From: Bacteroidota bacterium
GTDB taxonomy: Bacteria > Bacteroidota > Bacteroidia > Bacteroidales > UBA1556
Assembly: GCA_003648395.1 (NCBI GenBank)
Contig: QMPB01000046.1
Coordinates: 1-14,332 of the forward strand
Length of the DNA: 14,332 nt
Reading direction: 5' to 3'
The notes under the pieces are model-generated. The model saw nothing but the letters and a program-made list of their open reading frames with translations, searched no databases and was not told where the DNA came from. Position numbers and translations under genes: made by a program. This document shows, one piece after another, positions 246-14,060 of the stretch (position 1 is the stretch's first letter; every line of letters begins with the position of its first letter).

Positions 246-249
246 TCTA

Positions 250-1542
250 TCAATAATTATTTAATGTTTGATATCCAATTAACCTATCCCAATACTGACC
301 TTGATCTTTATAATAAACATAAATTGTATATTCATTAACCGTCTCACTATAACTTCCTTCAAATGGCTCTACAAGACCAGTATTTTTTCCATTTGGCACA
401 TACAAATACTGATAATTATAATATCCTTGCTTCATTAATAGTGACGTTGTATATGTTTTGGTTAACTGATTATAAGCCATTCGAGATGAATTATCTATTC
501 TCCAGTCTGTTAATTGTCCAATAATATATATTCCACCATTTGTAATTACAGAATCCGTTTTAAGATTAAAATTAATAAAAGCATAGTCTGCTTCAATCTG
601 ATCACTCATCATTGGGTCGTCCCAGTCTATAACAGAATACCTTCCATTTAATTCTTCATATTTAAGATAATTCTTATTATATCGGCTTTCATCAGTAAGC
701 AAATCCACTTGGTAACCACTTTCATCGTATCTAATTTGGTTTACATGAGCAGATTGCACTTTTAGACTTCTAATATCAAATACTCGAAACTCATTTCCTC
801 CTTCAAATAGAATATCATTAGCAAGATTGAAATAAAGATATTCTGAAGTCATTATTTTAGGTTGGTGTTTCACAATCATATTATCTTTTCTACCATTTTG
901 CTGAATAACCATGGTAAAATCCTCATAAATATTAGGCATTGGATAATTCTGAAGATTTACTTTTACATATAGTTCTTGATCTTTATCTCTATAAATAGGC
1001 GACTTCGCCATAAAAACCTCTGAAACTACTTCTACCTTATTCTCAACAACATACATTCTCCTTGTTATTATAGGATTATCTGGTTCACCTTCTGGATAGA
1101 TCTTTAAAAGATAATTCCCCGACTTAGTAATACGCATATTACTAGATGGCAGCTGAACTCTATAATAATTGTAACGAATTGTAGTATTAAAAGAGCCTGT
1201 ATTAGAATTGAAATATTCTTCGTGCATACCATCAATATACTCCATTGGCAAAAGGTCTGCAGGAGTCCAATCGGCATTGCACAGAATAAAAGTATAATAG
1301 TAAGTTTCTGCCTCTACATTAAGGTCATCGAAAGACAATGTTAGAGTTCCTCCAGAGCCAAGTTCAAGTAGTGGTTTTGAATTCTTAAAACCTGTAGCAT
1401 GAAATAATACAGATTTAAAATTCTCACTATAAATATAATCGTCATAGCGTATATGATTATTGTCGTAATAATCATCCTCTTCTTGAGCAGAAACAGGTAA
1501 AAAAATAAATACGCCAATTATTAACAATAAGTATTTATACAT
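250..1542 (-). CDS. Type IX secretion system plug protein (DUF5103 family)
   Basis: A 430-residue secreted protein. Residues 1-20 are a signal peptide (MYKYLLLIIGVFIFLPVSAQ) followed by an acidic, Tyr-rich mature start. The body matches the DUF5103 pattern: an early 'FHATGF...PLLELGSGGTLTLSF' segment, 'CNADWTP' at about 88-94, 'YRVQLPSSNMRITKSGNYLLKIYP' at about 127-150, and a C-terminal 'EGSYSETVNEYTIYVYYKDQG' block at about 395-415 ending 'DRLIGY'. In T9SS the Plug protein closes one side of the large SprA outer-membrane channel; that role is known for the family and is assigned here by similarity. The length is normal for the family. The start is the only ATG that gives a signal peptide. 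It follows the repeat-containing secreted protein by 48 nt and precedes the partial gene by 4 nt, suggesting a small envelope operon. No classical Shine-Dalgarno sequence is visible. Confidence 0.85.
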   Translation of the reverse strand: MYKYLLLIIGVFIFLPVSAQEEDDYYDNNHIRYDDYIYSENFKSVLFHATGFKNSKPLLELGSGGTLTLSFDDLNVEAETYYYTFILCNADWTPADLLPMEYIDGMHEEYFNSNTGSFNTTIRYNYYRVQLPSSNMRITKSGNYLLKIYPEGEPDNPIITRRMYVVENKVEVVSEVFMAKSPIYRDKDQELYVKVNLQNYPMPNIYEDFTMVIQQNGRKDNMIVKHQPKIMTSEYLYFNLANDILFEGGNEFRVFDIRSLKVQSAHVNQIRYDESGYQVDLLTDESRYNKNYLKYEELNGRYSVIDWDDPMMSDQIEADYAFINFNLKTDSVITNGGIYIIGQLTDWRIDNSSRMAYNQLTKTYTTSLLMKQGYYNYQYLYVPNGKNTGLVEPFEGSYSETVNEYTIYVYYKDQGQYWDRLIGYQTLNNY

Positions 1543-1590
1543 TGTTTATTATATTTAATATAGAAACTTAGAATAAATCAAGATATAATA

Positions 1591-2661
1591 CTATAAATCT
1601 TCTAATAGTTTTATTTTATCATAATCAGCTTTATAGTCTTTATACTTAATGCTCTGATACAGAATTGATAAATCAATCTTACCGCTTAAGCCTGAAAGTT
1701 TAAGAGTAATGATTGAATTTTTATTATCCCAAGTAGTATACATTTCAACTTGTCCTTCACTAACAGCTAATCCTCTTTTAGTAAAATCTTCACGATAAGT
1801 ATCAGTCTTCCAAATAATAGTATCGCTTTGTGGTTTACCATATTTACTTATTAATATTTTCTGTAAGTGCATATAATCATATACATACTCTATTTTATCG
1901 GAATATTTATTAGCTATAAGATAATCTCCAGTAGTAAGCTTATTCTTTGTAAAATTATAAGTAAATACTACGTCAAATTTACCAATCTTCTTACTGTATG
2001 CAAGTACATTTCCATTTTCATTAATAAGTTTTGCCTTTTCTTTATCCTTAACATAGTTTTTTGAGTTTCCCCATTTACTTTTTCTGAAACCAACTTCTGA
2101 AAAAATCTTAAGATCATGTTTATAACGCAACCTATCTTCAAGATGACTAAGCTCCCTACTATAGTACTCTATGGAGAAATCAATTACACTTTTTTCACCG
2201 TTTAATGTATAAAAAATATCTGTTCTCTCAGTTTGCCATGCAGAATAAAAAAGCATTTGATCTTTACTTATAGCTAATCCCCAATTGGGGAAATCACTTC
2301 TATAAGTGTCATTTTTCCAAACAACTTCATCTTCTATTAGCTTACCATATTTAGCAGATAATCCTTCTTTTACTCTATTATATTCAATTACATATTTATT
2401 TAAATCTGTATACTTTTCAGTAACTAAATATCTAGCACTAATAAGTTTATCATAAGCAAAATTATAATAAACAATACACTTATACCCAGCAACTACAGCA
2501 TCATAGGCTATTAACACATCGGTTTCTTTAAATAATTTATTAGTTTCAAGACCTTTCACCTGCTCTTTAGTCATTCCCCAATCTGTTTTTCTAAAATCGT
2601 GAGCTTGAACTAATCCAACTAAAGCAATAAACAGAAATGATAAAATAATAAACTTCTTCAT
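1591..2661 (-). CDS. Secreted protein with two homologous ~150-residue halves, function unknown
   Basis: A 356-residue protein. Residues 1-20 form a typical signal peptide (MKKFIILSFLFIALVGLVQA, cleavage before His21). The mature protein is an internal duplication with an offset of about 169 residues. FRKTDWG (23-29) matches FRKSKWG (192-198), YNFAYDKL (66-73) matches YNFTKNKL (235-242), AKYGK (103-107) matches SKYGK (272-276), and WKNDTYRSDF (115-124) matches WKTDTYREDF (284-293). The halves are joined by a charged, probably helical linker (about 168-188) and the protein ends in a Lys/Asp-rich tail. Each half is Tyr- and Trp-rich and looks beta-rich. I do not recognise the family or any catalytic motif. 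It lies 48 nt upstream of the Plug-like gene on the same strand and may share its transcript. It is probably periplasmic or surface-exposed. Confidence 0.8.
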   Translation of the reverse strand: MKKFIILSFLFIALVGLVQAHDFRKTDWGMTKEQVKGLETNKLFKETDVLIAYDAVVAGYKCIVYYNFAYDKLISARYLVTEKYTDLNKYVIEYNRVKEGLSAKYGKLIEDEVVWKNDTYRSDFPNWGLAISKDQMLFYSAWQTERTDIFYTLNGEKSVIDFSIEYYSRELSHLEDRLRYKHDLKIFSEVGFRKSKWGNSKNYVKDKEKAKLINENGNVLAYSKKIGKFDVVFTYNFTKNKLTTGDYLIANKYSDKIEYVYDYMHLQKILISKYGKPQSDTIIWKTDTYREDFTKRGLAVSEGQVEMYTTWDNKNSIITLKLSGLSGKIDLSILYQSIKYKDYKADYDKIKLLEDL

Positions 2662-2828
2662 AAGTAATATTTGTATTGTTATTAATATATTTTAATAGAT
2701 CATCTAAATGATAATCAACGGTATTTAAGAAAATTAAACACAATCCCAAAATAATATTATTATTCTGAAATTATATTTACTAATATGCAAATATATTAAT
2801 AAAAGCTTACAATACTATAATAAGCTTA

Positions 2829-2844
2829 TTGCTATTGTTAGCAA
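2829..2844 (-). terminator. Small stem-loop after ppnP, candidate terminator
   Basis: TTGCTA (2829-2834), a 4-nt loop, and TAGCAA (2839-2844) form a perfect 6-bp stem 15 nt past the ppnP stop codon. On the transcribed (minus) strand it is followed by TAAGCTTATTATAGT. The 12-bp palindrome AATAAGCTTATT (2819-2830) abuts it. There is no strong U-run, so termination is only a suggestion. Confidence 0.35.
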
Positions 2845-2859
2845 CAAATTATTACTTCT

Positions 2860-3141
2860 TTATTTGTAATAACAAATATAAGAACTTACTTCATCAGCCT
2901 TAAATTTAAAATCTTTTCCTGCATGAGTAGTAAATTCATCATCAACACTACATTCTTTCCATTTGTCATTGCCTTCTTCCCAGAAACTAATCTTTCCAGA
3001 TGTAATCTTATAATGCTCATTAACCACAGCCCCAAATGAGAACTCTCCATCAGCAATAATTCCTACTGAAAAAGCATTATTATCACTATCGTAAGTAAGT
3101 GACATTACTCTATCGTCATGGTACTTTCTTAATTTATACAT
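2860..3141 (-). CDS. ppnP: Pyrimidine/purine nucleoside phosphorylase PpnP (DUF1255/YaiE family)
   Basis: A 93-residue protein, close to the length of the E. coli PpnP (about 94). The family pattern is visible throughout: 'SVGIIADGEFSFG' (25-37), corresponding to the E. coli SVGVMVEGEYTF segment, 'ITSGKISFW' (46-54), and the closing 'SSYICYY' (86-92), corresponding to TSYLCRY. The fold is a small cupin-like beta barrel. Family members split a broad range of purine and pyrimidine nucleosides with phosphate into free base and ribose-1-phosphate (nucleoside salvage, cytoplasmic). The start ATG at 3141-3139 is fixed by a strong Shine-Dalgarno sequence, which is unusual in this window. The gene appears monocistronic: about 200 nt of non-coding DNA follow before the next gene, and a large gap precedes it. 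Confidence 0.9.
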   Translation of the reverse strand: MYKLRKYHDDRVMSLTYDSDNNAFSVGIIADGEFSFGAVVNEHYKITSGKISFWEEGNDKWKECSVDDEFTTHAGKDFKFKADEVSSYICYYK

Positions 3142-3144
3142 ATT

Positions 3145-3150
3145 TCCTCC
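3145..3150 (-). promoter_or_regulatory. Strong Shine-Dalgarno sequence of ppnP
   Basis: On the minus strand GGAGGA lies directly upstream of the start, with only AAT between it and the ATG and an A-run before it. Genes of Bacteroidota usually lack such a site, and no other gene here shows one as clear. The GGAGG-to-ATG spacing (4 nt) is on the short side. Confidence 0.7.
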
Positions 3151-3158
3151 TTTTTTAT

Positions 3159-3172
3159 GAGATAAGTATCTC
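3159..3172. repeat. Inverted repeat in the ppnP leader
   Basis: GAGATA (3159-3164), AG, TATCTC (3167-3172) form a perfect 6-bp inverted repeat just before the A-run and Shine-Dalgarno sequence of ppnP. As RNA it could form a 5-bp stem with a 4-nt loop next to the ribosome binding site. As DNA it could be a small operator. Neither role is shown. Confidence 0.4.
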
Positions 3173-3439
3173 TAGTTAATAATCACTTCATTCTTTAGAT
3201 TTCGCAAGTTACAAAATATAGAAGCTATTGTCAAGAGGAGATAAATCAAATCTTAATTTTTACTTAGATTTATTAATCTTCACACCAAATAAAGCTGATA
3301 GCTATTCAAAAAAACAATAAAAGAATTCTAAGTAATTAATTGCCTTACACTATAATAAGCCTTACTCCTACTTGATTATTAGTTAATTACAATTTATCAT
3401 TCTAAATAAGTTCTAAATAAGCATTTTTACCCATAATAA

Positions 3440-3472
3440 TTTGCTTTTAACGAACAAAAGTTCATAATTTTG
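3440..3472 (+). promoter_or_regulatory. Candidate Bacteroidota-type promoter, plus strand
   Basis: TTTG (3440-3443) and TAATTTTG (3465-3472) match the Bacteroidota -33 (TTTG) and -7 (TAnnTTTG) boxes exactly, with a 21-nt spacer from TTG to TA, within the usual range. It points towards the small ORF at 3734, giving a leader of roughly 250 nt, or towards a non-coding RNA. It is the best promoter match seen in the window. Confidence 0.5.
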
Positions 3473-3544
3473 TCCTTTTAAGTATTTTTATACTTAATTA
3501 TTATTAAACTGTTTATCATGCAATACTCCGTTGACTTTTTGTTT

Positions 3545-3570
3545 CTCGCAAAGCCGCAAAGCCGCAACGG
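3545..3570. repeat. CGCAAAG-type dispersed intergenic repeat, copy C (short)
   Basis: Starts CTCGCAAAGCCGCAAAGCCG and shares the initial CTCGCAAAG with the longer copies at 5808 and 13195. The unit GCAAAGCC is tandemly repeated. Such motifs are common between genes in Bacteroidota. This copy lacks the longer flanking body of the other two. Confidence 0.5.
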
Positions 3571-3654
3571 TCTGGTTTACAATAATTTATATAAATTAGA
3601 CTACTACTTGTAATCACCTACATATCAATAATTTATGAAATCATAACCAGCCTG

Positions 3655-3670
3655 CCTCGATACATCGGGG
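3655..3670. repeat. GC-rich hairpin
   Basis: CCTCGAT (3655-3661) pairs with ATCGGGG (3664-3670), including one G-T pair, to form a compact stem in otherwise very AT-rich DNA. It lies about 65 nt upstream of the small plus-strand ORF. It could be an RNA structure in that leader or a terminator-like element, but no U-run follows. Confidence 0.35.
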
Positions 3671-3733
3671 AACTATTAATTATTAGCACATTATTAATTT
3701 AGAACATTATCAAATAATTAAACAACAGAAATT

Positions 3734-3838
3734 ATGTACACAACAGAGATTATATGGCTACTAACTTGGCCGATATTTATATATATGAGCCTGAAACTAA
3801 GTCATTACTTTATTGAGAAGATTGAAGAGAAAGAGTAA
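3734..3838 (+). CDS. Candidate 34-residue single-span membrane peptide
   Basis: ATG to TAA encodes MYTTEIIWLLTWPIFIYMSL (1-20) then a charged tail ending FIEKIEEKE. The composition is that of a real small membrane protein. The N-terminus is short and near neutral, a Trp/Leu/Ile-rich transmembrane segment spans about residues 5-21, and the C-terminus is amphipathic with alternating Lys and Glu. No family is recognised. It is the only plausible plus-strand gene and lies downstream of an exact Bacteroidota-type promoter with a long leader. No Shine-Dalgarno sequence is seen. A chance ORF of this length is possible, so the call rests on composition and promoter. Confidence 0.45.
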   Translation: MYTTEIIWLLTWPIFIYMSLKLSHYFIEKIEEKE

Positions 3839-3846
3839 CTAATATA

Positions 3847-3936
3847 ATGGCAATAAGACAATACAGAAATAGTTCCATAATACCTTTTCTGATTATTGAG
3901 TGTAAACCTATAAATTACGGTGAGAAACCACCTTAG
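3847..3936 (+). pseudogene. Possible HsdR_N-like coding remnant
   Basis: A 29-codon open stretch reads MAIRQYRNSSIIPFLIIECK (1-20) then PINYGEKPP before a stop. 'IPFLIIECKP' resembles the core strand and nuclease motif (E-x-K) of type I restriction R-subunit N-terminal domains (HSDR_N_2 type: '...PFLLIECKAP'). Nothing before or after extends the similarity, so it would be a tiny remnant, and chance is a real alternative. Its end overlaps the opposite-strand remnant at 3908-4060. Confidence 0.2.
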
Positions 3937-4060
3937 TAGCCTTAAGCCAAGAAACCTTAAAGTCTGAATCACTAAAGTCTGTTTCCATTGATAATACTCC
4001 CCTATCCATACTTTTAATTTTTTCTATTAGTATTGTATTATCTGAAGAAACTAGCGTGTC
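3908..4060 (-). pseudogene. Remnant of a DUF481-type outer-membrane protein gene
   Basis: On the minus strand, 50 open codons followed by TAG read DTLVSSDNTILIEKIKSMDR (first 20), then GVLSMETDFSDSDFKVSWLK (next 20), then ATKVVSHRNL. The '(K)SMDRGVL-x-METDFSDSDFK-x-W' block is characteristic of the N-terminal region of DUF481-like proteins of Bacteroidota, which normally follows a signal peptide ending in ...AQ and precedes a beta-barrel. The codon before Asp is an in-frame TAA (4063-4061). If it were once CAA, the junction would read NAQ-DTLV, as in intact relatives. No signal peptide can be read upstream and no barrel follows downstream, so both ends are lost. It lies just past the 3' end of the receiver-kinase gene. 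Confidence 0.5.
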
Positions 4061-4160
4061 TTAAGCATTTACTTTTACAAAAAATCTGTCTTTTCTGTCT
4101 TTTGCAAGCATTGTAGCGTGTTTAGCTCTATAAACTCCTCTCTTATCTCTCTTCTAATAC

Positions 4161-5279
4161 TTACAATTTCAAGATTAGACTAAATTTTGAGCCAACATCA
4201 GGTTTACTATCTACCTTAATATTTCCATTATTAAGGTCAACTATTTTTTTCATTATAGAAAGGCCAAGGCCTGTTCCAGAAATATTTCTAGTTTTAGCAT
4301 TCTTGGCTCTCATAAACTCTTCGAAAAGATGTGACTTCTCTTCTTCATTCATTCCAATACCTGTGTCTTCAACTTGAATATGGAGTTCATTTGCTTTTTG
4401 CTCTATTGTAAATATTACTTTCCCTTTTTGCTTATTGTATTTTATAGCATTTGAAAGTAAATTATTGAATATTATCTCATAATCAGATGCGTCAGCTTGA
4501 ATAATTAGTTTATTTGGGAAATTGGTAATTATCTCTACTTCTTTCTCTTTAGCAGCTGGCTCAATGGCAATAATAGAACTTTTAGCTATTTCCGTAATAT
4601 CAATTTCGGTAATATTTCGAGCTTTTCTTCCAGATTCTATCTTTGTGAAATCAAGCATATCCATTATTAATGTTCTCATTGACTGAATTCTATCGAGAGA
4701 ACGATTAATCATCAAATCATAATCTTCAAGCTTATCTCCTGCTTGCCTATCTTTGATAATTCGCAGATAGCTTTCAATTGTATTTATTGGAGATTTAAGT
4801 TCATGGGAAAGAACAGAAAGAAACTGAAAACGAATTTTCTTGCCTTCAGCTTTCATTTCTCTTGTCATTCGCTTCAAAAATAAATGTTTAGTTATGCTTT
4901 CGATTGCTGTAGTAAGTTCTTGTTTTGTAAATGGTTTTGGAACAAAATTGAAAGCACCATTATTTGTTGCTTTTACCGCTAATTCTATTGATGCATAAGA
5001 TGTTATCATCATTACAGCAAGATCATATTTTCGTTCCTTTATTATTTCAAGAACTTCTATTCCCTCTATTCCAGGGAGTTTATTGTCGAGCAAAACAATA
5101 TCTATTACATCATTCTCAATTATTGAAAGTGCTTCTTCTCCTGTTTCAGCATCCAATAATTCATATTCGAAATCATCGTCGTGAAAAGGAAATGAAATAA
5201 TTAGATTCCTAAGCCCTCGGCGTATACCTGTTCTTATTCCAGTTTCGTCATCTACTATTAAGATTTTTAGTTTTTCCAT
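4161..5279 (-). CDS. Receiver-histidine kinase (N-terminal response regulator domain fused to HisKA-HATPase)
   Basis: A 372-residue soluble protein with no membrane segment or PAS domain. Residues 1-125 are a receiver: acidic pocket Asp10/Asp11, phospho-acceptor Asp65 (IVLLDNKLPG), Thr93 and Lys115 with canonical spacing. A helical linker (about 126-150) leads to HisKA with His159 (SHELKSPI). HATPase_c follows: N-box with Asn277 (NNLLSNAIKY), G1 DTGIG (305-309), and G2 GTGLGL (335-340). The receiver is thus the input domain of a kinase, the reverse of the usual hybrid order. It should pass phosphate or a conformational signal from an upstream kinase into a second kinase step. It follows the single-domain receiver gene after 104 nt that contain phased short repeats. 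It is probably the last gene of the hydrogenase-linked signalling set. Its output partner is not evident. Confidence 0.9.
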   Translation of the reverse strand: MEKLKILIVDDETGIRTGIRRGLRNLIISFPFHDDDFEYELLDAETGEEALSIIENDVIDIVLLDNKLPGIEGIEVLEIIKERKYDLAVMMITSYASIELAVKATNNGAFNFVPKPFTKQELTTAIESITKHLFLKRMTREMKAEGKKIRFQFLSVLSHELKSPINTIESYLRIIKDRQAGDKLEDYDLMINRSLDRIQSMRTLIMDMLDFTKIESGRKARNITEIDITEIAKSSIIAIEPAAKEKEVEIITNFPNKLIIQADASDYEIIFNNLLSNAIKYNKQKGKVIFTIEQKANELHIQVEDTGIGMNEEEKSHLFEEFMRAKNAKTRNISGTGLGLSIMKKIVDLNNGNIKVDSKPDVGSKFSLILKL

Positions 5280-5309
5280 GATTTTTTATTGTAAAAGGTT
5301 TTTATACGT

Positions 5310-5383
5310 TGTAAAGAATTGTAATATCATTTTAGCACCTTAGCATTTCTTACAATTCCTTACTATTCTTTACATTATCAATA
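5310..5383. repeat. Phased 10-nt repeats and inverted repeat between the receiver and receiver-kinase genes
   Basis: On the minus strand three near-copies follow each other at 10-nt spacing: GTAAAGAATA, GTAAGGAATT and GTAAGAAATG. An inverted copy, TTACAATTCTTTAC, follows 25 nt later. On the plus strand the arms GTAAAGAATTGTAA (5311-5324) and TTACAATTCCTTAC (5350-5363) match in 13 of 14 positions. A competing right arm TTCTTTACA lies at 5367-5375. This may be protein-binding direct repeats on one face of the helix or alternative RNA hairpins that attenuate the downstream kinase. Confidence 0.5.
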
Positions 5384-5776
5384 CTACAATTTCAAAAGCT
5401 TATTAATCTCTCTATGCAGTTGATCTGGGCGAATATTCTTCTCCAAGTAAGCATCAGCTTTCATCCAGCTTTTATCAGTTTCATTCTCTAATTCGAAAAT
5501 ATAACCACTTACTGAAGATGATGCAGTAGCTAGAATAATTGGTGTGTCAGGATATTTCTTCTTGAACTTATATGATAAAATAAATCCACTATCATCATTC
5601 TCCATCATTAAGTCAAATATTGCCAAATCTGGTTTAGTTGTTTCAATTATCTCCTCGCATTCTTTTTGACTTTCCGCAATTATTGTTTCAAATCCAAATT
5701 TTTCAACATGGAACTTAATTATATTTAGACAATCTTGATCGTCATCTGCAATTAGTATTATTTTCTTGTTGTTCAT
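5384..5776 (-). CDS. Single-domain response regulator (CheY-like receiver)
   Basis: A 130-residue protein that is only a receiver domain. The acidic pocket is Asp11-Asp13 (IADDDQD), the phospho-acceptor is Asp55 (AIFDLMM), followed by Thr84 (LATAS) and Lys113 (LEKNI). The Thr-to-Lys distance is 29 residues against about 22 in standard receivers, so a short insertion (about 88-107, GYIFELENETDKSWMKADAY) sits between strands 4 and 5. It has no DNA-binding or enzymatic output domain and must act by protein contact or phosphotransfer. It lies downstream of the sensory hydrogenase-kinase and upstream of the receiver-kinase, a natural position for a phosphorelay intermediate. A candidate promoter with two adjacent palindromes lies about 100 nt upstream. 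Confidence 0.9.
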   Translation of the reverse strand: MNNKKIILIADDDQDCLNIIKFHVEKFGFETIIAESQKECEEIIETTKPDLAIFDLMMENDDSGFILSYKFKKKYPDTPIILATASSSVSGYIFELENETDKSWMKADAYLEKNIRPDQLHREINKLLKL

Positions 5777-5879
5777 ATTTTCTAGTTATTAATTGTTATT
5801 AAAATCTCTCGCAAAGTTTATTATTCGCTTTGCTCACAATATACTTATCCACAAATTTTCACGAATTAAACTAATTTCT

Positions 5880-5887
5880 CAAATTTA
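5880..5887 (-). promoter_or_regulatory. Candidate -7 box for the receiver/receiver-kinase genes
   Basis: On the minus strand TAAATTTG matches the TAnnTTTG box of Bacteroidota exactly, about 100 nt upstream of the receiver start. No TTTG stands at the expected -33 position; two palindromes lie there instead, as might occur at an activator-dependent promoter. Confidence 0.4.
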
Positions 5888-5902
5888 TTGCAATGTAAAA
5901 TA

Positions 5903-5933
5903 ATAATAAGTTATTATGTATTGCATGCAATAC
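5903..5933. promoter_or_regulatory. Two adjacent perfect palindromes, candidate operator
   Basis: ATAATAA-G-TTATTAT (5903-5917) is directly followed by GTATTGCATGCAATAC (5918-5933), a perfect 16-bp palindrome. Together they lie 15-46 nt upstream of the candidate -7 box at 5880-5887, the usual place for an activator dimer. Confidence 0.5.
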
Positions 5934-6010
5934 TTCACATAAATAGTTTTGCTATATTTTAGCATTAAATCCGTAATCATCCGCCTATTTCGTGTCATCT
6001 GTGTTCTAAA

Positions 6011-7990
6011 TTATTTTGGTAATGTAATAATGAACGTTGTTCCCAAGCTGCCTTGCTTTAGGTCATTATTTGATTTAACATTTATTTTTCCTTTATGCAT
6101 TTTAATAATTCCATACACAAGAGGCAATCCTAATCCTGTACCTTTGTTCATAGACTTGGTGGTGAAGAATGGAGTAAATATCTTCTCCAAATTCTCCTTC
6201 GCTATTCCTTCTCCAGTATCAGTTATTTCAATGATAAAATCATCACCTTTGTCTTTAATATTTACTGAAAGTTTACCACCATTAGGCATAGCATCAACAG
6301 CATTTTTCTCAATATTGGTAATGGCTTGCATCATCTGTTCGCTATCTATACTTACTATTGTATTATCTAATTCACAATTAAATTCCAAATCTATATTATC
6401 TGGTTTTACAAATGATTTGAAGCTTTTTTTAATAAAGTCAACAATATTTACTTCTTTAAGATTCACCTTATTCTTTCTGGCAAAATTAAGCAGTCCTTCC
6501 ACTATTGTTTTACAGCGTGCTGCTTGTTCGTTTATGATTTCAATATCACCAAATATTTCACTTTTAGCACTCAGTTCATCTTTCAGAATACTACTATATA
6601 AAGTAATAATACCCAAAGGGTTATTTAGCTCGTGAGCAATTCCTGCCGACAACTGCCCCATACTTGCAAGTTTTTCTGACTGTTTTAAAGCTGACTTAGT
6701 ATCAGAGAGTTGTTTATTAGAGAGATGCAATTCCTCATTAGATTTATGCAATTTCTCAATGGCATAAGGCAAGCACATTTCCGTCTCTGCCAAACCTTCC
6801 ACTACTGCACTAGCATAAGCTTTGCAAGTTTCGTAACCACAAGCACCGCAGTTGAGCATATCCTTATCTTGAATTTTCCCCATAGAAACAAGAACTGTCT
6901 CTATTTCTTCTATACTTGGCTCAGGTAAGCGCTGATCGTTGGCAGTAAATGTTCTTGACAAATCAATATCAGAATACTCTTTCTTCTCCCTCTCCCACTC
7001 TTTTTCATCAAGATTATTGAGTTTAGATTTTACATACTCACTAATCTTCATTCTCTTAACTAATTTTCCTCCCTTAACAGACATACCAGGCCCTTCAATA
7101 CAGCCATCACAACATAATAATTCAAGATGTTGGTTTTTAAGAACACCATTTTCAAACTCCTGAATAGCTTCCCTAAATTTAGTTTTACCCTCAGCAGTAA
7201 TAACTTCTCCATTCCCAAAGCCTTCAGTTTTATCAATACTCTTTAGTAATCCATGATTCACAGGAAAGAAAGCTCCTTGTCCAGAAATTGGTTTATCAAA
7301 TTCTAGTTTCTCTACATTTTCACTACCAATTTTATGATTCTCAAACATTATTCTAAGTTCAGAAAAAGTAAGATTCTCATCAAAGCTATTAGATTCAGCT
7401 TTTTTAGCAACACAAGGGCCCACAAAAACCAACTGTGAATCCTCTCCATACTTTTCTTTCAGTACTTTTGCTATAGCTATAGCAGGAGAAACAATTGGAG
7501 CAAGAAACTCAACTAATTCAGGATGATATTGCTTAATATAATTTACTATTGCTGGACAATCAGAAGTAATAACTGACTTGATTTTCTCATTTTCAAATAC
7601 ATTTTTATAAGCTTGAGCAACTAAGTCAGCGCCAAAAGATACTTCTGTAACCAAATCAAATCCCAAGACTTTTGCCATTCCCACAAAGATTTTATAATCA
7701 TCAATCACTGAAAATTCAGCGGCAAAACTTGGAGCTACACAAAGTATCTTTTGCCTATTATTCGAAAGGATATTTTCTACTTTTTCAATAGATGAATAAT
7801 AAGTTTTGGCTCCCTGACTACACACAATCACACAATTACCACAAGCAATACACCTCTCATCAATTATCTCCGCTTGACCATTAATTATCTTAATAGCCTT
7901 TACCGGACATTCACGCACACAGGTATAACATACGCGACATAAGCCTTTTACGGTATATACTAGTGGGTTATATTTTGAAAAATTAGACAT
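6011..7990 (-). CDS. Sensory [FeFe]-hydrogenase-like histidine kinase
   Basis: A 659-residue soluble protein. Domains in order: two [4Fe-4S] ferredoxin motifs (Cys18/21/24/28 and Cys47/50/53/57); an [FeFe]-hydrogenase large-subunit domain (about 80-325); a further [4Fe-4S] domain with C-x2-C-x4-C-x16-C spacing (Cys381, 384, 389, 406); a coiled coil (about 410-440); HisKA with His453 (IAHELNNPLG); and HATPase_c with Asn563 (N-box), DTGEG (591-595) and GTGLGLP (617-623). All four H-cluster cysteines are present: Cys145 (TSDCP), Cys193 (GPCVAKK), and Cys293 and Cys297 (LLCCDGC). The catalytic TSCCP motif has become TSDCP, so the proton-relay cysteine is Asp144. The usual MPC and MACPGGC surroundings are changed. 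Known sensory (group C/D) hydrogenases show comparable losses, and the kinase fusion supports sensing of H2 or redox state. It starts 90 nt after hydA, probably on the same transcript. Confidence 0.93.
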   Translation of the reverse strand: MSNFSKYNPLVYTVKGLCRVCYTCVRECPVKAIKIINGQAEIIDERCIACGNCVIVCSQGAKTYYSSIEKVENILSNNRQKILCVAPSFAAEFSVIDDYKIFVGMAKVLGFDLVTEVSFGADLVAQAYKNVFENEKIKSVITSDCPAIVNYIKQYHPELVEFLAPIVSPAIAIAKVLKEKYGEDSQLVFVGPCVAKKAESNSFDENLTFSELRIMFENHKIGSENVEKLEFDKPISGQGAFFPVNHGLLKSIDKTEGFGNGEVITAEGKTKFREAIQEFENGVLKNQHLELLCCDGCIEGPGMSVKGGKLVKRMKISEYVKSKLNNLDEKEWEREKKEYSDIDLSRTFTANDQRLPEPSIEEIETVLVSMGKIQDKDMLNCGACGYETCKAYASAVVEGLAETEMCLPYAIEKLHKSNEELHLSNKQLSDTKSALKQSEKLASMGQLSAGIAHELNNPLGIITLYSSILKDELSAKSEIFGDIEIINEQAARCKTIVEGLLNFARKNKVNLKEVNIVDFIKKSFKSFVKPDNIDLEFNCELDNTIVSIDSEQMMQAITNIEKNAVDAMPNGGKLSVNIKDKGDDFIIEITDTGEGIAKENLEKIFTPFFTTKSMNKGTGLGLPLVYGIIKMHKGKINVKSNNDLKQGSLGTTFIITLPK

Positions 7991-8029
7991 TCTTTAGTAT
8001 TGGTTATCTGTTCATTTGGTTATTTGGTT

Positions 8030-8066
8030 ATTTGTTGAGCTGATTCGATTAAGCAACTCAACAAAT
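8030..8066 (-). terminator. Stem-loop between hydA and the sensory kinase gene
   Basis: ATTTGTTGAG (8030-8039) and CTCAACAAAT (8057-8066) form a perfect 10-bp stem with a 17-nt loop, 14 nt past the hydA stop. No U-run follows in the direction of transcription; instead a run of AACCAAATA-type repeats leads to the next start. It more likely dampens read-through or marks a processing point than stops transcription completely. Confidence 0.4.
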
Positions 8067-8080
8067 TAACAAATAAGCAT

Positions 8081-9805
8081 TTATATTATAACTTCACGTT
8101 TTTGATAATGAGTATGCAAAAGCTCATGAGATTTAGCACTCAGTGGCTCTTCCAAGAAATCAGCATAAAGTTTCTGAACATCAGGGTTTTTATGCGATAC
8201 TTTTATCGACTCTTTATCATCAATATTATACAATGATTTTGCTCTAATTCTTATTGCCTCCTCATCCATCTTAATTGGCTGACCACCACCACCAACGCAA
8301 CCACCAGGGCAAGCCATAATTTCAATAAAATGAATATCGCTTCTCCCTTCTCTTATTTCATCAAGAAGCTTTTTTGCATTGGCAAGTCCATTCACAACAG
8401 CCACACCAAGCTCTAAATCACCAATTTGAATCTTAGTTTCTTTTCTATTCTTAAAATCACGAAGTGCAGTTATTTTAAACTCAATTAACTCTTTACCAGT
8501 AAGTTTGTAATGAGCAGTACGAATGGCAGCTTCGGCAACACCTCCAGTAGTACCAAAGAGTTTACCAGCAGAAGTACGACTTCCAAGGGGATTATTGGCT
8601 ACTTCGGCATTCAAATTATGAATATCAATACCATACATTTTAATGAATTTCACAAACTCTCGAGTGGTAAGCACTGCGTCAACATCGCTAATTCCATTCT
8701 GAGTCATTTCCTCTCTTTGTCCTTCAAATTTCTTTGCAGTACAAGGCATTATAGCAACAGAATACAGTTTATCTTGTGGAATATTCTCCTTATCAATAAA
8801 GTAGCTTTTTATCACAGCACCTGTCATTTGCTGAGGCGATTTGCAAGAAGAAATATTATCAATAAAATCAGGAGCAAATTCTTCGGCATATTTTACCCAA
8901 CCTGGGCAGCAGCTAGTAATAAGAGGAAGTTTCCCTTTATTTAATATTCTATGTATAAGTTCAGAAGATTCTTCCATAATGGTAAGATCCGCACCAAAAC
9001 TTGTATCAAATACATAATCGAAACCAATTTTACGAATTGCGGCATTCATAATACCATTAATATCAAGACCTGGTTCCATACCAAACTCTTCAGCTATGGA
9101 AATAGAAATAGAAGGAGCATATTGAATAGCAACTTTAATTTCTGGATTTTGGAGAGCTTGTTTTATCTCAGCAAAGTGATTTTTCTCAGTAAGAGCACCT
9201 GTAGGACAAACCATAATACATTGACCACAATTCACGCAGCTTGAAGTATTTAAACCTTTATCGAAGGCTGTTCCTACCACAGTTTGATTACCTCGCTGCA
9301 CAAAATCAATGCAAGCTACACCCATTACTTCTTCACAAATTCTCACACAACGCCCACAAAGAATACATTTCTCAGGATCGCGAACAATACTTGCGCTAGA
9401 ACGGTCTAAGGGCTGCTTATTCTTCCTTCCTCTTATTCTTCTTTCAGTAATTGAAAGCTCTTCAGAAAGTCCTTGAAGCTCACAATTTCCATTTCTAACA
9501 CAATACAAACAGTCGTCAGGATGGTTAGATAGCAATAGTTCTACTATAGTTTTTCTAGACTCATTCACTCTAGCAGAATGAGTATTTACTTCTAAGCCTT
9601 CGTATACTGGAGAAGAGCAGGAAGTTATAAGTTTACCAGAATTAACATCCTCAACCACACACATTCTGCAAGCTCCTGTGGGCATCATATTTTTAAGATG
9701 ACAAAGTGTTGGCACTTTAATTCCTTCACGATTTAAAGCATCTAGAATAGTTTCCCCATTATTAGCTTCTATGGTTTTATTATTAACTTTTATCTTCATT
9801 ATCAA
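8081..9805 (-). CDS. hydA: [FeFe] hydrogenase catalytic subunit HydA of the NAD-linked trimeric enzyme
   Basis: A 574-residue protein. Domains: plant-type [2Fe-2S] (Cys35, 46, 49, 63); His-ligated [4Fe-4S] (His95, Cys99, 102, 108); two [4Fe-4S] motifs (Cys147/150/153/157 and Cys190/193/196/200); then the H-cluster domain. Motifs TSCCPGW (Cys300), MPCTAKKFE (Cys355) and MACPGGC (Cys499, Cys503) hold all H-cluster ligands. The proton-path residues Cys299, Glu279, Glu282 and Ser319 are also present, so it should be active. Numbering coincides with Clostridium pasteurianum CpI. There is no C-terminal Fe-S extension as in the longer Thermotoga-type HydA. With HydB and HydC next to it, the likely role is reversible, electron-bifurcating H2 formation from NADH plus reduced ferredoxin in the cytoplasm. 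The start lies 4 nt after the hydB stop; Met3 is an alternative start. Confidence 0.96.
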   Translation of the reverse strand: MIMKIKVNNKTIEANNGETILDALNREGIKVPTLCHLKNMMPTGACRMCVVEDVNSGKLITSCSSPVYEGLEVNTHSARVNESRKTIVELLLSNHPDDCLYCVRNGNCELQGLSEELSITERRIRGRKNKQPLDRSSASIVRDPEKCILCGRCVRICEEVMGVACIDFVQRGNQTVVGTAFDKGLNTSSCVNCGQCIMVCPTGALTEKNHFAEIKQALQNPEIKVAIQYAPSISISIAEEFGMEPGLDINGIMNAAIRKIGFDYVFDTSFGADLTIMEESSELIHRILNKGKLPLITSCCPGWVKYAEEFAPDFIDNISSCKSPQQMTGAVIKSYFIDKENIPQDKLYSVAIMPCTAKKFEGQREEMTQNGISDVDAVLTTREFVKFIKMYGIDIHNLNAEVANNPLGSRTSAGKLFGTTGGVAEAAIRTAHYKLTGKELIEFKITALRDFKNRKETKIQIGDLELGVAVVNGLANAKKLLDEIREGRSDIHFIEIMACPGGCVGGGGQPIKMDEEAIRIRAKSLYNIDDKESIKVSHKNPDVQKLYADFLEEPLSAKSHELLHTHYQKREVII

Positions 9806-9809
9806 TTAT

Positions 9810-11744
9810 TTAAGATATTGTAATAGCATTAAATTTACAAACATCGAAACAAGTTCCGCAGGCAATACATTTATCATCAACAATAAAATGAGGTGCTTTT
9901 CTACTTCCAATTATTGCATCAGTTGGGCATTTTTTAGCACAAATAGTACAGCCAGTACAAGCATCAACATCGATGGTAAATACTCTTAATTCAGTACAAA
10001 CATTTGCTGAACATTTTCGTTCAAAGATATGCTCTTCGTATTCTTCACGAAACCATTTTATTGTACTGAGAACAGGATTTGGAGCAGTTTGTCCAAGACC
10101 ACAAAGAGAAGTCTCCTTAATAACTTTCCCTAATCGCTCAAGTTGGGTAACACCTTTAAATCTACGCAAAGCCTCGTGTTTACCATTATGATGAGGTTTG
10201 TGAGTAATGTCTTCAAGTATTTCTAACATCCTACGAGTACCTTCGCGGCAAGGAATACACTTTCCGCAGCTTTCTCGTTGAATAAAATCCATAAAGAATT
10301 TTGCAACATCAACCATACAAGTATCTTCATCCATTACAACAAGGCCACCAGAGCCCATCATTGCCCCTACCTCAATAAGTGATTCATATTCGATGGGAAT
10401 ATCAAGGTTTTGTTCAGTAATACAACCACCGGAAGGACCACCAATTTGCACTGATTTAAACTTTTTATTATTTGGAACACCTCCTGCAATATCAAAAAGC
10501 ACCTCTCTAACACTTGTTCCCATTGGGATTTCTACTAGACCTGTTTTGGTAATTTTACCAGAAAGGGCAAAAACCTTAGTGCCCTTACTTTTTTCAGTTC
10601 CAATGGCAGCAAATTTATCTTCTCCTTCTTTTATAATAAAAGGAAGATTGGAGAGAGACTCCACATTATTGATAATAGTTGGTTTGCCAAAAAGTCCACT
10701 CACAGCAGGGAAAGGAGGTCGAGGTCGAGGCATACCCCTTTTGCCCTCAATACTATTTATAAGTGCTGTTTCTTCACCACAAACAAATGCACCAGCGCCG
10801 GTTTTTACTTTAATTTCAAAATTAACATTAGACCCAAAAACATTATCTCCCAAAAGTCCATATTCTCTAGCTTGTTGAAGAGCGATATTCAGTCTTTTGA
10901 TAGCTAATGGATATTCAGCACGAATATAAACATAAGATTTAGTAGCACCAATACCATAAGCAGCTATTGCCATCCCTTCTATTAATCTGTGCGGATCACC
11001 TTCAATAACTGCCCTATCCATAAAAGCACCTGGATCACCTTCATCAGCATTACAGATAAGATATTTTTGCTCTGCAGAAGTATTTAAGGCAAATTTCCAT
11101 TTCTTACCAGTAAGAAAACCTCCTCCTCCTCTACCGCGGAGTCCACTTTTCTCAACTAAATCGCAAACTTCTTCTGAATTCTTAGTTTTAATTAAGTTTA
11201 AAAAACCTGTATAACCTCCACTTGCAATATATTCATCAATGCTAATAGGATTTACAATACCGCAGTTTTTTAGTACAATTCTAAATTGAGGTTTAAAGAA
11301 AGCTAAGTCGTTAATATCAGGTATTCCATCCCATTTATGATTCTCTTTGGATTTGAATTGGCAAAGAACTGATTGCTCTTTTACTTCTGATTTAGCTTTC
11401 AGAATACTATCAAGAATATCCTCCACTTTGTCAGCAGTAGCATTCTCAAAACAAACTCTATTATGACCTGGAAGTTGCACATCCATCAGTGGCTCTGAGG
11501 AGCACAAACCTATACAACCTGTTTCTATAATATCAGCTTCAATCTTAGTAGCTTTAAGATATGTTTTTACAGCAATCATTGTTTTATCAGCACCGGCACC
11601 AAGACCACAAGTACCTGTACCAATGAATATTACTGGCTTAGTAATTAATTCTCTCTTTAATTCTTTCACTAAATCTACATTGCTAAAATCCTTTCTTGGA
11701 TTCGACAATATTTCTTCAATTATATATTGTTTGGTAGAATTCAT
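9810..11744 (-). CDS. hydB: NADH-binding flavoprotein subunit HydB (NuoF-like)
   Basis: A 644-residue protein. It has an N-terminal thioredoxin-like [2Fe-2S] region (Cys46 in GTCGLGAGA; Cys77 and Cys81 in TGCIGLC), then a NuoF core. The core carries the FMN-binding GLRGRGGGGF (201-210), the NADH-site NADEGDPGAFMDR (232-244) and GAGAFVCGEETALI (316-329), and a [4Fe-4S] site (Cys493, 496, 499 and Cys548). The C-terminus holds Cys578/Cys583 and a two-cluster ferredoxin domain (Cys596/599/602/606 and Cys626/629/632/636). This is the usual HydB layout of trimeric bifurcating [FeFe] hydrogenases, where the flavin subunit exchanges electrons with NAD(H) and the clusters link to HydA and ferredoxin. 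The hydC stop and hydB start overlap as TAATG, indicating translational coupling; hydA follows after 4 nt. Confidence 0.96.
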   Translation of the reverse strand: MNSTKQYIIEEILSNPRKDFSNVDLVKELKRELITKPVIFIGTGTCGLGAGADKTMIAVKTYLKATKIEADIIETGCIGLCSSEPLMDVQLPGHNRVCFENATADKVEDILDSILKAKSEVKEQSVLCQFKSKENHKWDGIPDINDLAFFKPQFRIVLKNCGIVNPISIDEYIASGGYTGFLNLIKTKNSEEVCDLVEKSGLRGRGGGGFLTGKKWKFALNTSAEQKYLICNADEGDPGAFMDRAVIEGDPHRLIEGMAIAAYGIGATKSYVYIRAEYPLAIKRLNIALQQAREYGLLGDNVFGSNVNFEIKVKTGAGAFVCGEETALINSIEGKRGMPRPRPPFPAVSGLFGKPTIINNVESLSNLPFIIKEGEDKFAAIGTEKSKGTKVFALSGKITKTGLVEIPMGTSVREVLFDIAGGVPNNKKFKSVQIGGPSGGCITEQNLDIPIEYESLIEVGAMMGSGGLVVMDEDTCMVDVAKFFMDFIQRESCGKCIPCREGTRRMLEILEDITHKPHHNGKHEALRRFKGVTQLERLGKVIKETSLCGLGQTAPNPVLSTIKWFREEYEEHIFERKCSANVCTELRVFTIDVDACTGCTICAKKCPTDAIIGSRKAPHFIVDDKCIACGTCFDVCKFNAITIS

Positions 11745-12190
11745 TATTTCTCTTTTAGATTATCAATAATTTCTTTAATTGAAGATGAAGTTACCTTAGC
11801 GTGAAACTCCCCATTGATAGAAATAACTGGAGCCAAACCACAAGCACCTATACAAGCCACTACTTCAAGGCTAAAATTTCCATCACGGGAAGTTTCTTCA
11901 TTTTTTATTTTCAAGGTTTTCTCCAATTCTTGAAGAACATTTGCAGATCCCAAAACGTGACAAGCAGTTCCTCTGCAAACCTGAATATGATGTTTCCCTT
12001 TGGGCTGAAATCTAAACTGATTGTAGAATGTCGCTACACCAAATATCTTACTCACAGGTAAGTTTAATAATTCACCAATTTCAACTAGTGCATTTTCTGA
12101 CAAATAGCCTTCCTTTTCTTGTACCTCTTGCAAAATTGGAATTAAGCTATCTCTTTCTGCTTCTTTATATTTTTCAAGTATCTGCTTCAT
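11744..12190 (-). CDS. hydC: Thioredoxin-like [2Fe-2S] subunit HydC (NuoE-like)
   Basis: A 148-residue protein of normal NuoE-type length. A helical N-terminal domain (about 1-58, with the conserved SKIFGVATFY near residues 47-56) precedes a thioredoxin-like fold. The [2Fe-2S] ligands are Cys72 and Cys77 (VCRGTACHVLGS) and Cys113 and Cys117 (VACIGACGLAP). It partners with the NuoF-like subunit in NADH-linked hydrogenases. It is the first gene of the hydCBA transcript. The ATG at 12190 is preceded by an A-rich stretch without a Shine-Dalgarno sequence, as is common in Bacteroidota. No clear TAnnTTTG promoter was found in the 240 nt upstream. Confidence 0.96.
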   Translation of the reverse strand: MKQILEKYKEAERDSLIPILQEVQEKEGYLSENALVEIGELLNLPVSKIFGVATFYNQFRFQPKGKHHIQVCRGTACHVLGSANVLQELEKTLKIKNEETSRDGNFSLEVVACIGACGLAPVISINGEFHAKVTSSSIKEIIDNLKEK

Positions 12191-12430
12191 TAATTTCTTG
12201 TTTTTGAATGTTCTCTATAAAGCTATTAAGGACTTTTATCACAAAAGAATAAGCCTCTTACTTCTGTATTTCTAGTATTTAATAAGAATTAAAACCAATT
12301 TCTTAATAATAATTGCGAATAAAGGCGTCAAGGTCGAGACAGATGACATTTTGAAAATATGGAATCTACTATCGTAAATGACATATTAGCAAAGCAAATT
12401 CAACAATGATATTGTCGTTGCTATTTGTAA
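12191..12430. other. Gap upstream of hydCBA
   Basis: These 240 nt separate the receiver gene from hydC and probably hold the hydrogenase promoter. I see no exact TAnnTTTG box on the minus strand. A weak imperfect hairpin around 12402-12420 (core ACAAT-GAT-ATTGT) lies just past the receiver stop and could end that transcript. No ORF or known RNA is visible. Confidence 0.4.
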
Positions 12431-12928
12431 TTATATATATTTCTCAATATTTTCTATTAGCTTTCGTGCTTCCACCGGTTTCTTGATAAAAGCCTTTACA
12501 GGAACCCAAACAAGCTCTCCTTTTTCATCTTTATAATCAATACCGGCATTACCTAGGCTATTATTTTCAACCAATAAAACATCCAAATCGTGATTATTCA
12601 TTTCAGAGCGATAGTATCGAGCAAAACGCATAGAATCTTCATCTTTAGAAGAGAAGACATTTATGGAAGTCTGCATTATTACAGGCATATTAGCAAATTC
12701 TTCATTCGTTGCAAACTCTTTTGCTAATTCAAAACCCTCGTAATGAGTTGACATCATAACATCACAGATAGCAAGATTTGGTTTCTTTGTTTTAGCAATT
12801 TCAATGGCTTCTTCTTTGCTAGTTGCAGCAAGAACCTGGTAGCCTTCATTATTCAGGATAGTTTCCACGATAGTAATCACATCAATATCGTCATCTACGA
12901 TTAAAATTTTCTTTGTCTTTTCCATCAT
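12431..12928 (-). CDS. Response regulator receiver protein with a long internal insertion
   Basis: A 165-residue receiver without an output domain. The acidic pocket is Asp12-Asp14 (IVDDDID), the phospho-acceptor is Asp56 (AICDVMM), followed by Thr87 (MQTSI) and Lys149/Lys150 (IKKPV). The Thr-to-Lys stretch is about 62 residues against about 22 in ordinary receivers. The extra 40 or so residues (about 93-143, charged, with RFARYYRSEMNN and IDYKDEKGELVWVPV) sit between strands 4 and 5, the face that signals to partners. It lies directly upstream of hydCBA on the same strand, behind its own candidate promoter, and is probably part of the hydrogenase-linked signalling set. It has no DNA-binding domain, so it must act by protein contact. 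The start could be Met1 or Met2. Confidence 0.88.
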   Translation of the reverse strand: MMEKTKKILIVDDDIDVITIVETILNNEGYQVLAATSKEEAIEIAKTKKPNLAICDVMMSTHYEGFELAKEFATNEEFANMPVIMQTSINVFSSKDEDSMRFARYYRSEMNNHDLDVLLVENNSLGNAGIDYKDEKGELVWVPVKAFIKKPVEARKLIENIEKYI

Positions 12929-12969
12929 TAGTTGGTTTAAAAGTTTATACTATTTCGTTCTAATTATGT

Positions 12970-12987
12970 AGCAAATATATATCTGCT
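12970..12987 (-). promoter_or_regulatory. Candidate promoter -7 box inside a palindrome, upstream of the insertion-bearing receiver
   Basis: On the minus strand TATATTTG (12979-12972) matches TAnnTTTG exactly, about 44 nt upstream of the start codon. It lies inside AGCAAATATATATCTGCT (12970-12987), an 18-nt palindrome with one mismatched pair. No TTTG is seen at -33. A repressor binding the palindrome would cover the -7 box. Confidence 0.4.
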
Positions 12988-13022
12988 AAATGAAATGGGA
13001 TAGAGTATAATGTGAAAAATAT

Positions 13023-13046
13023 TTAGGGTATTTATACCTAATTAGG
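13023..13046. repeat. Overlapping palindromes upstream of the receiver promoter
   Basis: TTAGGGTATTTATACCTAA (13023-13041) is an inverted repeat with a 1-nt bulge. It overlaps CCTAATTAGG (13037-13046), a perfect 10-bp palindrome. They lie about 45-75 nt upstream of the candidate -7 box and may be a regulator site. AT-rich sequence yields such symmetry by chance at some rate. Confidence 0.35.
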
Positions 13047-13194
13047 CTATATATTTGATTGAATTACTGCTATTTACTAAATATAATTATTAAGTAAATA
13101 TTATTTCTTTAATTAGTAATTAGTTGAGGTTAAATTATTTAAAAAGGAGATTTCTTTAAATTGTTTTTGGGCTTAGGTATTTTGGTTTATATAT

Positions 13195-13420
13195 CTCGCA
13201 AAGTCGCTAAGACGCAAATGAATTATTCGCAGGCTCACAATTCTTATCTGCGAATTTTAACGAATTAGACTAATTCTACTAATTATTAATTGGTGCATTC
13301 GTGGCTAATTCTTTTCAATTCGCGTAATTCGTACAATTAGTGAAAATTAGCGAACAAAACGCAATGAGCACAGCGAATTATAATCTGTGATTATCTGCCA
13401 AATCCGTGTCACCTGTGTTT
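13195..13420. repeat. Dispersed intergenic repeat, copy B
   Basis: Starts CTCGCAAAGTCGCTAAGACG, continues with ATTATTCGC, GCTCACAAT and CGAATTAGACTAATT, then a mosaic of ATTCGTGGCTAATTC- and AATTCGCGTAATTCG-like units. It ends CCGTGTCACCTGTGTTT about 10 nt from the stop codon of the NarL-type regulator. Copy A at 5808-6006 has the same block order and the same position past a stop codon. Confidence 0.6.
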
Positions 13421-13429
13421 CAATAGCTC

Positions 13430-14056
13430 CTATAGCAATCCATTTTTCAAAGCAAACATTATTAGATTAGGAGCATTCTTAGCTCCAGTTTTATCGAATA
13501 ATCGTGCTTTATGACCATCAACAGTACGTTTGCTGAGATGTAATTTTTCTGCAATTTCTACATTAGAATAGCCTTTTGCAATAAGCTTTAGCACATCTTT
13601 CTCCCTATTGCTAATTACAACATCTGTTTGTAATATTTTAGTATTCTGTTGAGTAGATATTACAAATTCTTCTGAGAAATATGTTTCTCCATAAAATACA
13701 TTCTTAATAGCTGTAGCAAGCTGATCTTTGGTGGTTTTCTTTAATAAGAAGCCCTTAGCTCCTGCTTCTATCATCTTATTGAAATAGCCAATTTCTTCGT
13801 GCATAGTTAAAGCAATAATCTCTGTCTCAGGATATTTTTCTTTTACTCTTTTTGTTGCTTCTATTCCATTTACTCCTGGCATATTTATATCCATCAAGAT
13901 TATATCTGCTGGATTCGTCTTCATTACTCTCATCACATCTTGACCATCAAAAGCCTCATCAAGAACTTTTACAAAAGAAATTTCATTAAGAACTGTTCGC
14001 AGTCCTTTGCGAAATATTATATGATCGTCGGCTATTATTACTCCAATTATTTCCAT
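13430..14056 (-). CDS. NarL/LuxR-family response regulator
   Basis: A 208-residue protein of normal NarL-family length. The receiver is residues 1-120: Asp10/Asp11, phospho-acceptor Asp56 (ILMDINMPG), Thr84 (ALTMH) and Lys106 (LLKKT) with canonical spacing. A linker leads to a LuxR-type helix-turn-helix (about 146-202: SNREKDVLKLIAKGYSN then VEIAEKLHLSKRTVDGHKAR). It is a DNA-binding transcription factor activated by its kinase. The start lies 4 nt after the stop of the upstream sensor kinase gene, a standard two-component pair. Its target is not known from the sequence. It is the only DNA-binding regulator in the window and lies 1.2 kb upstream of hydCBA. Confidence 0.95.
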   Translation of the reverse strand: MEIIGVIIADDHIIFRKGLRTVLNEISFVKVLDEAFDGQDVMRVMKTNPADIILMDINMPGVNGIEATKRVKEKYPETEIIALTMHEEIGYFNKMIEAGAKGFLLKKTTKDQLATAIKNVFYGETYFSEEFVISTQQNTKILQTDVVISNREKDVLKLIAKGYSNVEIAEKLHLSKRTVDGHKARLFDKTGAKNAPNLIMFALKNGLL

Positions 14057-14060
14057 TTTC

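Follow-up and report, generated by a model that had tools for sequence, protein, structure and literature searches.

We describe a gene, hydS, on the minus strand of a 14,332-nucleotide stretch of DNA from a Bacteroidota bacterium (Bacteroidales, UBA1556; GenBank assembly GCA_003648395.1, contig QMPB01000046.1, positions 1 to 14,332), referred to here as the window. The gene encodes HydS, in which a sensory-type [FeFe]-hydrogenase domain (H-domain) is joined directly to a histidine kinase, as supported by our tree and by the order of the Pfam domains. The gene and its parts are listed below; homologous positions are given in the numbering of the hydrogenase CpI.

6011..7990, minus strand: hydS, ATG start, sensory [FeFe]-hydrogenase domain and histidine kinase fusion, 659 residues
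7808..7948, minus strand: N-terminal 2x[4Fe-4S] ferredoxin-like domain, residues 15-61 (Pfam Fer4_10 at 15-57, Fer4 at 41-61)
7088..7747, minus strand: H-domain, residues 82-301 (Pfam Fe_hyd_lg_C, E 3.6e-40)
7559..7561, minus strand: codon of Asp144, at the position of the relay Cys299 of CpI
7112..7114, minus strand: codon of Cys293, a ligand according to an earlier note on this DNA, more likely at the A498 position
7109..7111, minus strand: codon of Cys294, probable [4Fe-4S]H ligand (C499 equivalent)
6767..6856, minus strand: C-terminal FeS domain PF04060, residues 379-408, Cx2Cx4Cx16C (Pfam E 5.6e-11)
6473..6661, minus strand: HisKA, residues 444-506, phospho-acceptor H453 (Pfam)
6017..6346, minus strand: HATPase_c, residues 549-658 (Pfam)

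The earlier note had described a hydrogenase domain turned into a kinase sensor, and its reading frame and residues (D144, C145, G191, C193, L292, C293, C297 and H453) are all as it claimed. Pfam and a reading of the sequence also bear out the three [4Fe-4S] motifs (C18/21/24/28; C47/50/53/57; C381-x2-C384-x4-C389-x16-C406), the complete HisKA-HATPase module and the lack of a PAS domain, for which HydS has no Pfam match even at E<=1. We take HydS to be soluble because its highest Kyte-Doolittle 19-residue mean, 1.9, falls within the H-domain. Searches for direct repeats and against Rfam found nothing of note.

A search with residues 1-430 of HydS, in which 7999 candidates were scored, returned at least 6106 proteins at E<=0.001, so HydS is a real kind of protein that does not arise by chance. 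We compare three sets of 120 listed proteins each: relatives with the Asp of HydS (Asp-type kinase), kinase-fused proteins with mostly Ala or Pro there (Ala/Pro-type, the sister set), and PAS-type proteins. The kinase histidine H453 is kept in 119/120 listed Asp-type relatives, with one gap. A scan of GTDB genomes confirmed at least 551 stretches, and the best 80 of these (79 from Bacteroidota, one from Spirochaetota) are our genome loci.

For the tree, 97 H-domains were aligned with MAFFT L-INS-i, and 94 were kept; the three left out are a duplicate of HydS, a short row and a row of PASB, our label for PAS-like sensors without a kinase. The tree was built with the first and third cysteine motifs cut from the alignment, the root is a midpoint root only, and the group C reference is the HydS of Ruminococcus albus (RaHydS, from a plasmid record), with TmHydS and TamHydS outside the tree. 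A 99/94 branch splits the sensors from groups A and B, with both HydS and RaHydS on the sensor side. The earlier note had named a place among the catalytic group A enzymes as what would overturn it; the tree sets HydS apart from groups A and B, and we reject group A membership. The Asp-type kinases form one clade (29 rows, support 98/91), whose sister is PASB (13 rows, joint branch 98/95); adjoining the two are four Ala/Pro-type kinase-fused proteins and a long-branched chemotaxis-type group (87/96, a branch we do not star).

HydS has two traits of groups C and D in the broad sense, its position in the tree and the C-terminal Cx2Cx4Cx16C motif after the H-domain. Narrower assignments fail. Group C in the narrow, PAS-containing sense (M2f, PMC8163306) is rejected on the missing PAS domain. 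Group D (M2e; PMC8163306, PMC10407848) is rejected because HydS has neither Ser or Thr at the M353 position nor an equivalent of Glu252 of TamHydS: the M353 position is G191 in HydS (Gly in 118 and Ser in 2 of the 120 listed Asp-type relatives), and the Glu252 position, which we infer to correspond to CpI V423 (Val in group A), is L248 (Leu in 25, Met in 3 and Lys in 1 of the 29 Asp-clade rows). Most papers cited here by PMC number are used in excerpt, and what we attribute to them holds for the excerpts.

The first feature that marks the Asp-type branch is Asp144. Asp stands at the C299 position in 120/120 listed Asp-type relatives and in 79/80 genome loci. A motif scan had flagged six loci without SDCP; five are explained by a late start of the open reading frame, and the sixth, L063, is a true Asn, the only one among the 80; it has no hydA (as in just three of the loci) and neither of the two receiver genes nearby. 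The same position varies in the other sets, with Pro 88, Ala 26 and Ser 6 in the Ala/Pro-type kinases and Ala 93, Ser 22, Pro 4 and Thr 1 in the PAS-type proteins. Published figures for this position are Cys 17%, Ala about 43%, Pro about 10% and Ser about 10% (PMC10055695), and Asp may be among the remaining fifth or so that the excerpt leaves unlisted.

The earlier note had the proton relay replaced by an Asp. The Asp is there, but the word replaced is doubtful at the first residue of the path, since Asp in place of the relay Cys keeps CaHydA, CpI and CrHydA1 active (PMC3485046, PMC6226526). In a screen of 19 residues in CaHydA, Asp alone retained efficient turnover and Asn was no substitute for Cys (PMC3485046). 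The C299D and C169D variants retain 30-80% of H2 evolution, and their carboxylate forms a hydrogen bond with the amine, but H2 uptake of C169D falls to 1-2% (PMC6226526). Asp moves the bias towards H2 evolution, and CaI C298D is mostly in the Hox state under H2 (PMC9563086). Because Asp stayed active in the saturation screen and the TSDCP of HydS is the motif of CpI C299D, an acid other than Cys, Asp144, may preserve the entry of the relay, although the remainder of the group A path is lost. The GPC in place of MPC and the Leu at the M497 position, which the earlier note pointed out, are present as residues but ordinary in sensory enzymes (Gly at 353 in TmHydS, Leu at 497 in TamHydS; PMC8163306).

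The second feature is a third cysteine motif shorter by one residue. The motif is Cx3C in groups A and B and in the RaHydS-type, PAS-type and chemotaxis-type proteins, and Cx2C in the kinase-fused and PASB proteins. All 99 scorable PAS-type proteins are Cx3C (the motif pattern failed to match the other 21 of the 120). In the Ala/Pro-type kinases 119/120 are scorable, one protein not being matched, and 119/119 are Cx2C with a single Cys at the 294 position and Phe at the 293 position. C294 is present in 120/120 listed Asp-type relatives and in 80/80 genome loci; at the 293 position there are 115 Cys and 5 Ser in the relatives, and Ser in 5/80 loci. Both the L-INS-i alignment and a profile HMM trained only on Cx3C proteins put the deletion of HydS after C294. 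The MAFFT auto alignment runs contrary to this, with C293 in register with the PAS-type Cys, and for that reason sequence alone does not settle the ligand. Given the invariance of C294, the variability of C293, the Phe of the sister set and the placement by the HMM, the ligand of the [4Fe-4S]H cluster is probably C294 and not C293, which would fill the A498 position. Our preferred correspondence with CpI is thus L292 to M497, C293 to A498, C294 to C499 and C297 to C503. We reject C293, which the earlier note counted among the H-cluster ligands, on conservation and on two alignments, although the auto alignment leaves room for it. On this assignment HydS has all four Cys ligands (C145, C193, C294, C297) and the Lys of K358 (K196), within a shorter third-motif loop.

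hydS has a fixed place between hydA on one side and two receiver genes on the other. In order of transcription the minus strand of the window carries a 165-residue receiver, nuoE, nuoF, hydA, hydS, a 130-residue receiver and a 372-residue receiver-kinase; the genes around hydS are as follows.

12431..12928, minus strand: single-domain response regulator, 165 residues, at the head of type I operons
11744..12190, minus strand: nuoE-like hydC subunit (Pfam, NCBIfam)
9810..11744, minus strand: nuoF-like hydB subunit (Pfam, NCBIfam)
8081..9805, minus strand: hydA, catalytic [FeFe]-hydrogenase subunit, NADH-dependent group A6 (NCBIfam NF040763, 793 bits against a cut-off of 765)
5384..5776, minus strand: single-domain response regulator, 130 residues (Pfam Response_reg)
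4161..5279, minus strand: receiver-histidine kinase REC-HisKA-HATPase, 372 residues (Pfam)

Counting only loci with enough sequence on the relevant side, hydA adjoins hydS in 72/75, nuoE and nuoF lie upstream in 63/66, the 130-residue receiver is downstream in 68/71 and the receiver-kinase in 62/63. The operons come in two types. Among 56 loci with hydA and at least 7 kb upstream, 29 have the 165-residue receiver without PASB (type I), 27 have PASB without the receiver (type II), and none has both or neither. HydA is 63-82% identical to that of the window in type I, against 36-57% in type II. The gene beside PASB is SpoIIE-like (two by Pfam; by BLAST in 20/24 type II loci with 7 kb downstream). 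According to BLAST, with one example of each verified by NCBIfam, type I loci have hydG (18/22), hydF (17/22) and hydE (16/22) downstream and type II loci have rex (23/24). For hydG in type II the figure is at most 10/24, since the minus-strand matches of L047, L056 and L073 (41-42% identity) may be other radical-SAM enzymes. PASB, found upstream of nuoE in L008, L033, L047 and other type II loci, is a divergent H-domain sensor without a kinase, paired with the SpoIIE-like gene; the residues listed for it at K358 include no Lys, and 6/15 have Asp, Asn or Thr at the C499 position. Its PAS label was given partly by eye, with a weak sub-threshold PAS match in 5/5 proteins scanned.

Parts of this arrangement have been described. 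HydDB includes group C enzymes linked to histidine kinases and to phosphatases (PMC5037454). A 2024 report has BfuT (sub-type V BfuTABC, group C3 by best HydDB hit), like HydS a fusion of H-domain and histidine kinase beside HydABC, in Hydrogenedentota and Caldithrix; three Bacteroidota are described with two bfuT genes (PMC11406978). This two-sensor layout matches our type II loci; the window, of type I, has a receiver gene and lacks a second sensor. The excerpts on BfuT name neither the residue at C299 nor the loop length nor any receiver partner. Given BfuT, neither the kinase fusion nor the two-sensor layout is new. For the fixed Asp and the shorter loop we found no report in the open-licence literature, where no paper among the ranked results has both TSDCP and a hydrogenase. 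RaHydS (Ruminococcus albus 7, our L107) shares the Fer4, H-domain and FeS domain and adjoins hydrogenase genes and rex, but it has a weak PAS match, Cys at C299 and the Cx3C loop, and in place of the kinase there is a SpoIIE phosphatase encoded separately. By their published descriptions, TmHydS and TamHydS resemble HydS in two N-terminal clusters, the C-terminal Cx2Cx4Cx16C and altered C299, M353 and M497 (PMC8163306); they differ in having Ala at C299, TmHydS also in its PAS domain and TamHydS in Ser at 353 and in Glu252, where HydS has Leu248. The laboratory variant CpI C299D (6glz, 8pvm) has the identical TSDCP motif, but its Cx3C loop and the remainder of its proton path are intact. Judged by its sequence, the HydS branch carries in nature an active-site substitution that was also made in the laboratory, combined with a shortened metal-binding loop.

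We consider it somewhat more probable than its negation that HydS is the soluble sensor kinase of a hydrogenase operon, in which reduction of an H-cluster alters phosphorylation at His453 and the change is passed to the receivers. The H-domain would carry an H-cluster held by C145, C193, C294 and C297, which H2 or strong electron pressure would slowly reduce. Asp144 would exchange protons with the bridging amine and make the cluster harder to reduce, so that only H2 at high levels, or a highly reduced cell, would be expected to trigger the sensor. The change would reach the C-terminal FeS domain and then, through helix 407-439, the dimerisation domain of the kinase, altering phosphorylation at His453. 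The phosphate would go to the 130-residue receiver and the receiver-kinase, and hydrogenase expression or activity would be adjusted. Direct coupling of H2 to the kinase can fairly be inferred. Only tentatively, and with less confidence, do we extend this to a Bacteroidota sensor-kinase clade whose fixed Asp and loop minus one residue would give a slow, hard-to-reduce H-cluster, a high-H2 alarm read directly by the kinase, to which the operon adds either a receiver or a cluster-degenerate H-domain sensor with a SpoIIE phosphatase, never both in our sample.

Several observations weigh against an H2-sensing HydS. To our knowledge, all groups in which an H-cluster is bound have one residue more in the third-motif loop than HydS. 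In the Asp clade E279 is Tyr in 29/29 and S319 is Ala in 27/29, and E282 is lost too; with these replaced the group A proton path does not continue, and Asp144 may lead nowhere. The maturases HydF and HydG are absent from one Asp-type genome (G005), and some Ala/Pro-type genomes have no maturases. H2 oxidation by Cys-to-Asp variants is 0.02-4% of wild type (PMC9563086). The C-terminal cluster of TamHydS is not reduced by H2 (PMC13104023), which favours a structural rather than an electron signal, and reviews call the sensory role putative (PMC8924675).

These observations feed other explanations. It is doubtful, but worth keeping in view, that HydS binds the H-cluster and senses H2 with Asp144 acting as an electrostatic or steric tuner and protons taking another path. 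The absence of the remaining group A path fits this, as do the Pro, Ala and Ser of the sister kinases and the fact that TmHydS and TamHydS work with Ala (PMC10055695, PMC10407848); yet Asp is fixed in all listed Asp-type relatives while the sister sets vary, and Asn failed where Asp succeeded in the saturation screen (PMC3485046). We find it unlikely that the [2Fe] subcluster is gone from the H-domain, leaving [4Fe-4S] clusters alone, and that the kinase responds to redox state through the ferredoxin-like and FeS domains and not to H2. The shorter ligand loop would agree with such a loss, and so would the sister PASB, which keeps the fold with the changes at K358 and C499 given above, and the genome of one kinase-fused relative (G130), which has no HydF or HydG at E<=1e-30 despite two hydA. 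In contrast to PASB, the Asp clade has lost no pocket residue, K358 included, and 9/10 of the clade's genomes have HydF and HydG (the HydF search scored a limited number of candidates per genome in 148 genomes and was full in nine), though both also serve HydA. Finally, the H-domain fold and pocket would also suit a catalytic hydrogenase with an incidental kinase tail, which we regard as highly improbable given the tree, the lost relay path and a true catalytic HydA next door.

What is at stake is whether H2 is really sensed by [FeFe]-hydrogenases of groups C and D, and by what route the signal travels on from the H-cluster. With its natural Asp and shortened loop the HydS branch is a good test case for hydrogen sensing. 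Since a single chain holds both sensor and kinase, and the genes of two receivers lie next to its own, the dependence of autophosphorylation on H2 is directly measurable in vitro. The fixed Asp lets the idea about the pKa of the proton donor, so far tried on laboratory mutants, be tried on an enzyme from nature. The Cx2C loop, for its part, raises the question whether a shorter cradle is tolerated by the H-cluster.

Among the open reading frames of the window no maturase genes are recognised; downstream of the receiver-kinase lies about 1 kb (3142-4160) without an open reading frame of at least 80 residues, where other type I loci have hydG, hydF and hydE. G130 (L098) is a single 3.74-Mb contig with a HydE match. 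In G138 HydF is near the operon, with no HydG or HydE. These two genomes, G037 and G057 all have hydA and a kinase-fused sensor with maturases missing, possibly through incomplete assembly. No DNA-binding domain is found in the two downstream partners or in the conserved operon core. A LuxR-type regulator lies upstream in 20/30 type I loci, and in the window it adjoins the end of its own kinase. Three loci (L082; L098, at 3079-4992; L112) have group A subunits with TSCSP, a Ser at the C300 ligand position. In L092, L093 and L103 the H-domains are fused, by sequence, to chemotaxis-receptor-like or SpoIIE-like outputs, with Pro at the C299 position.
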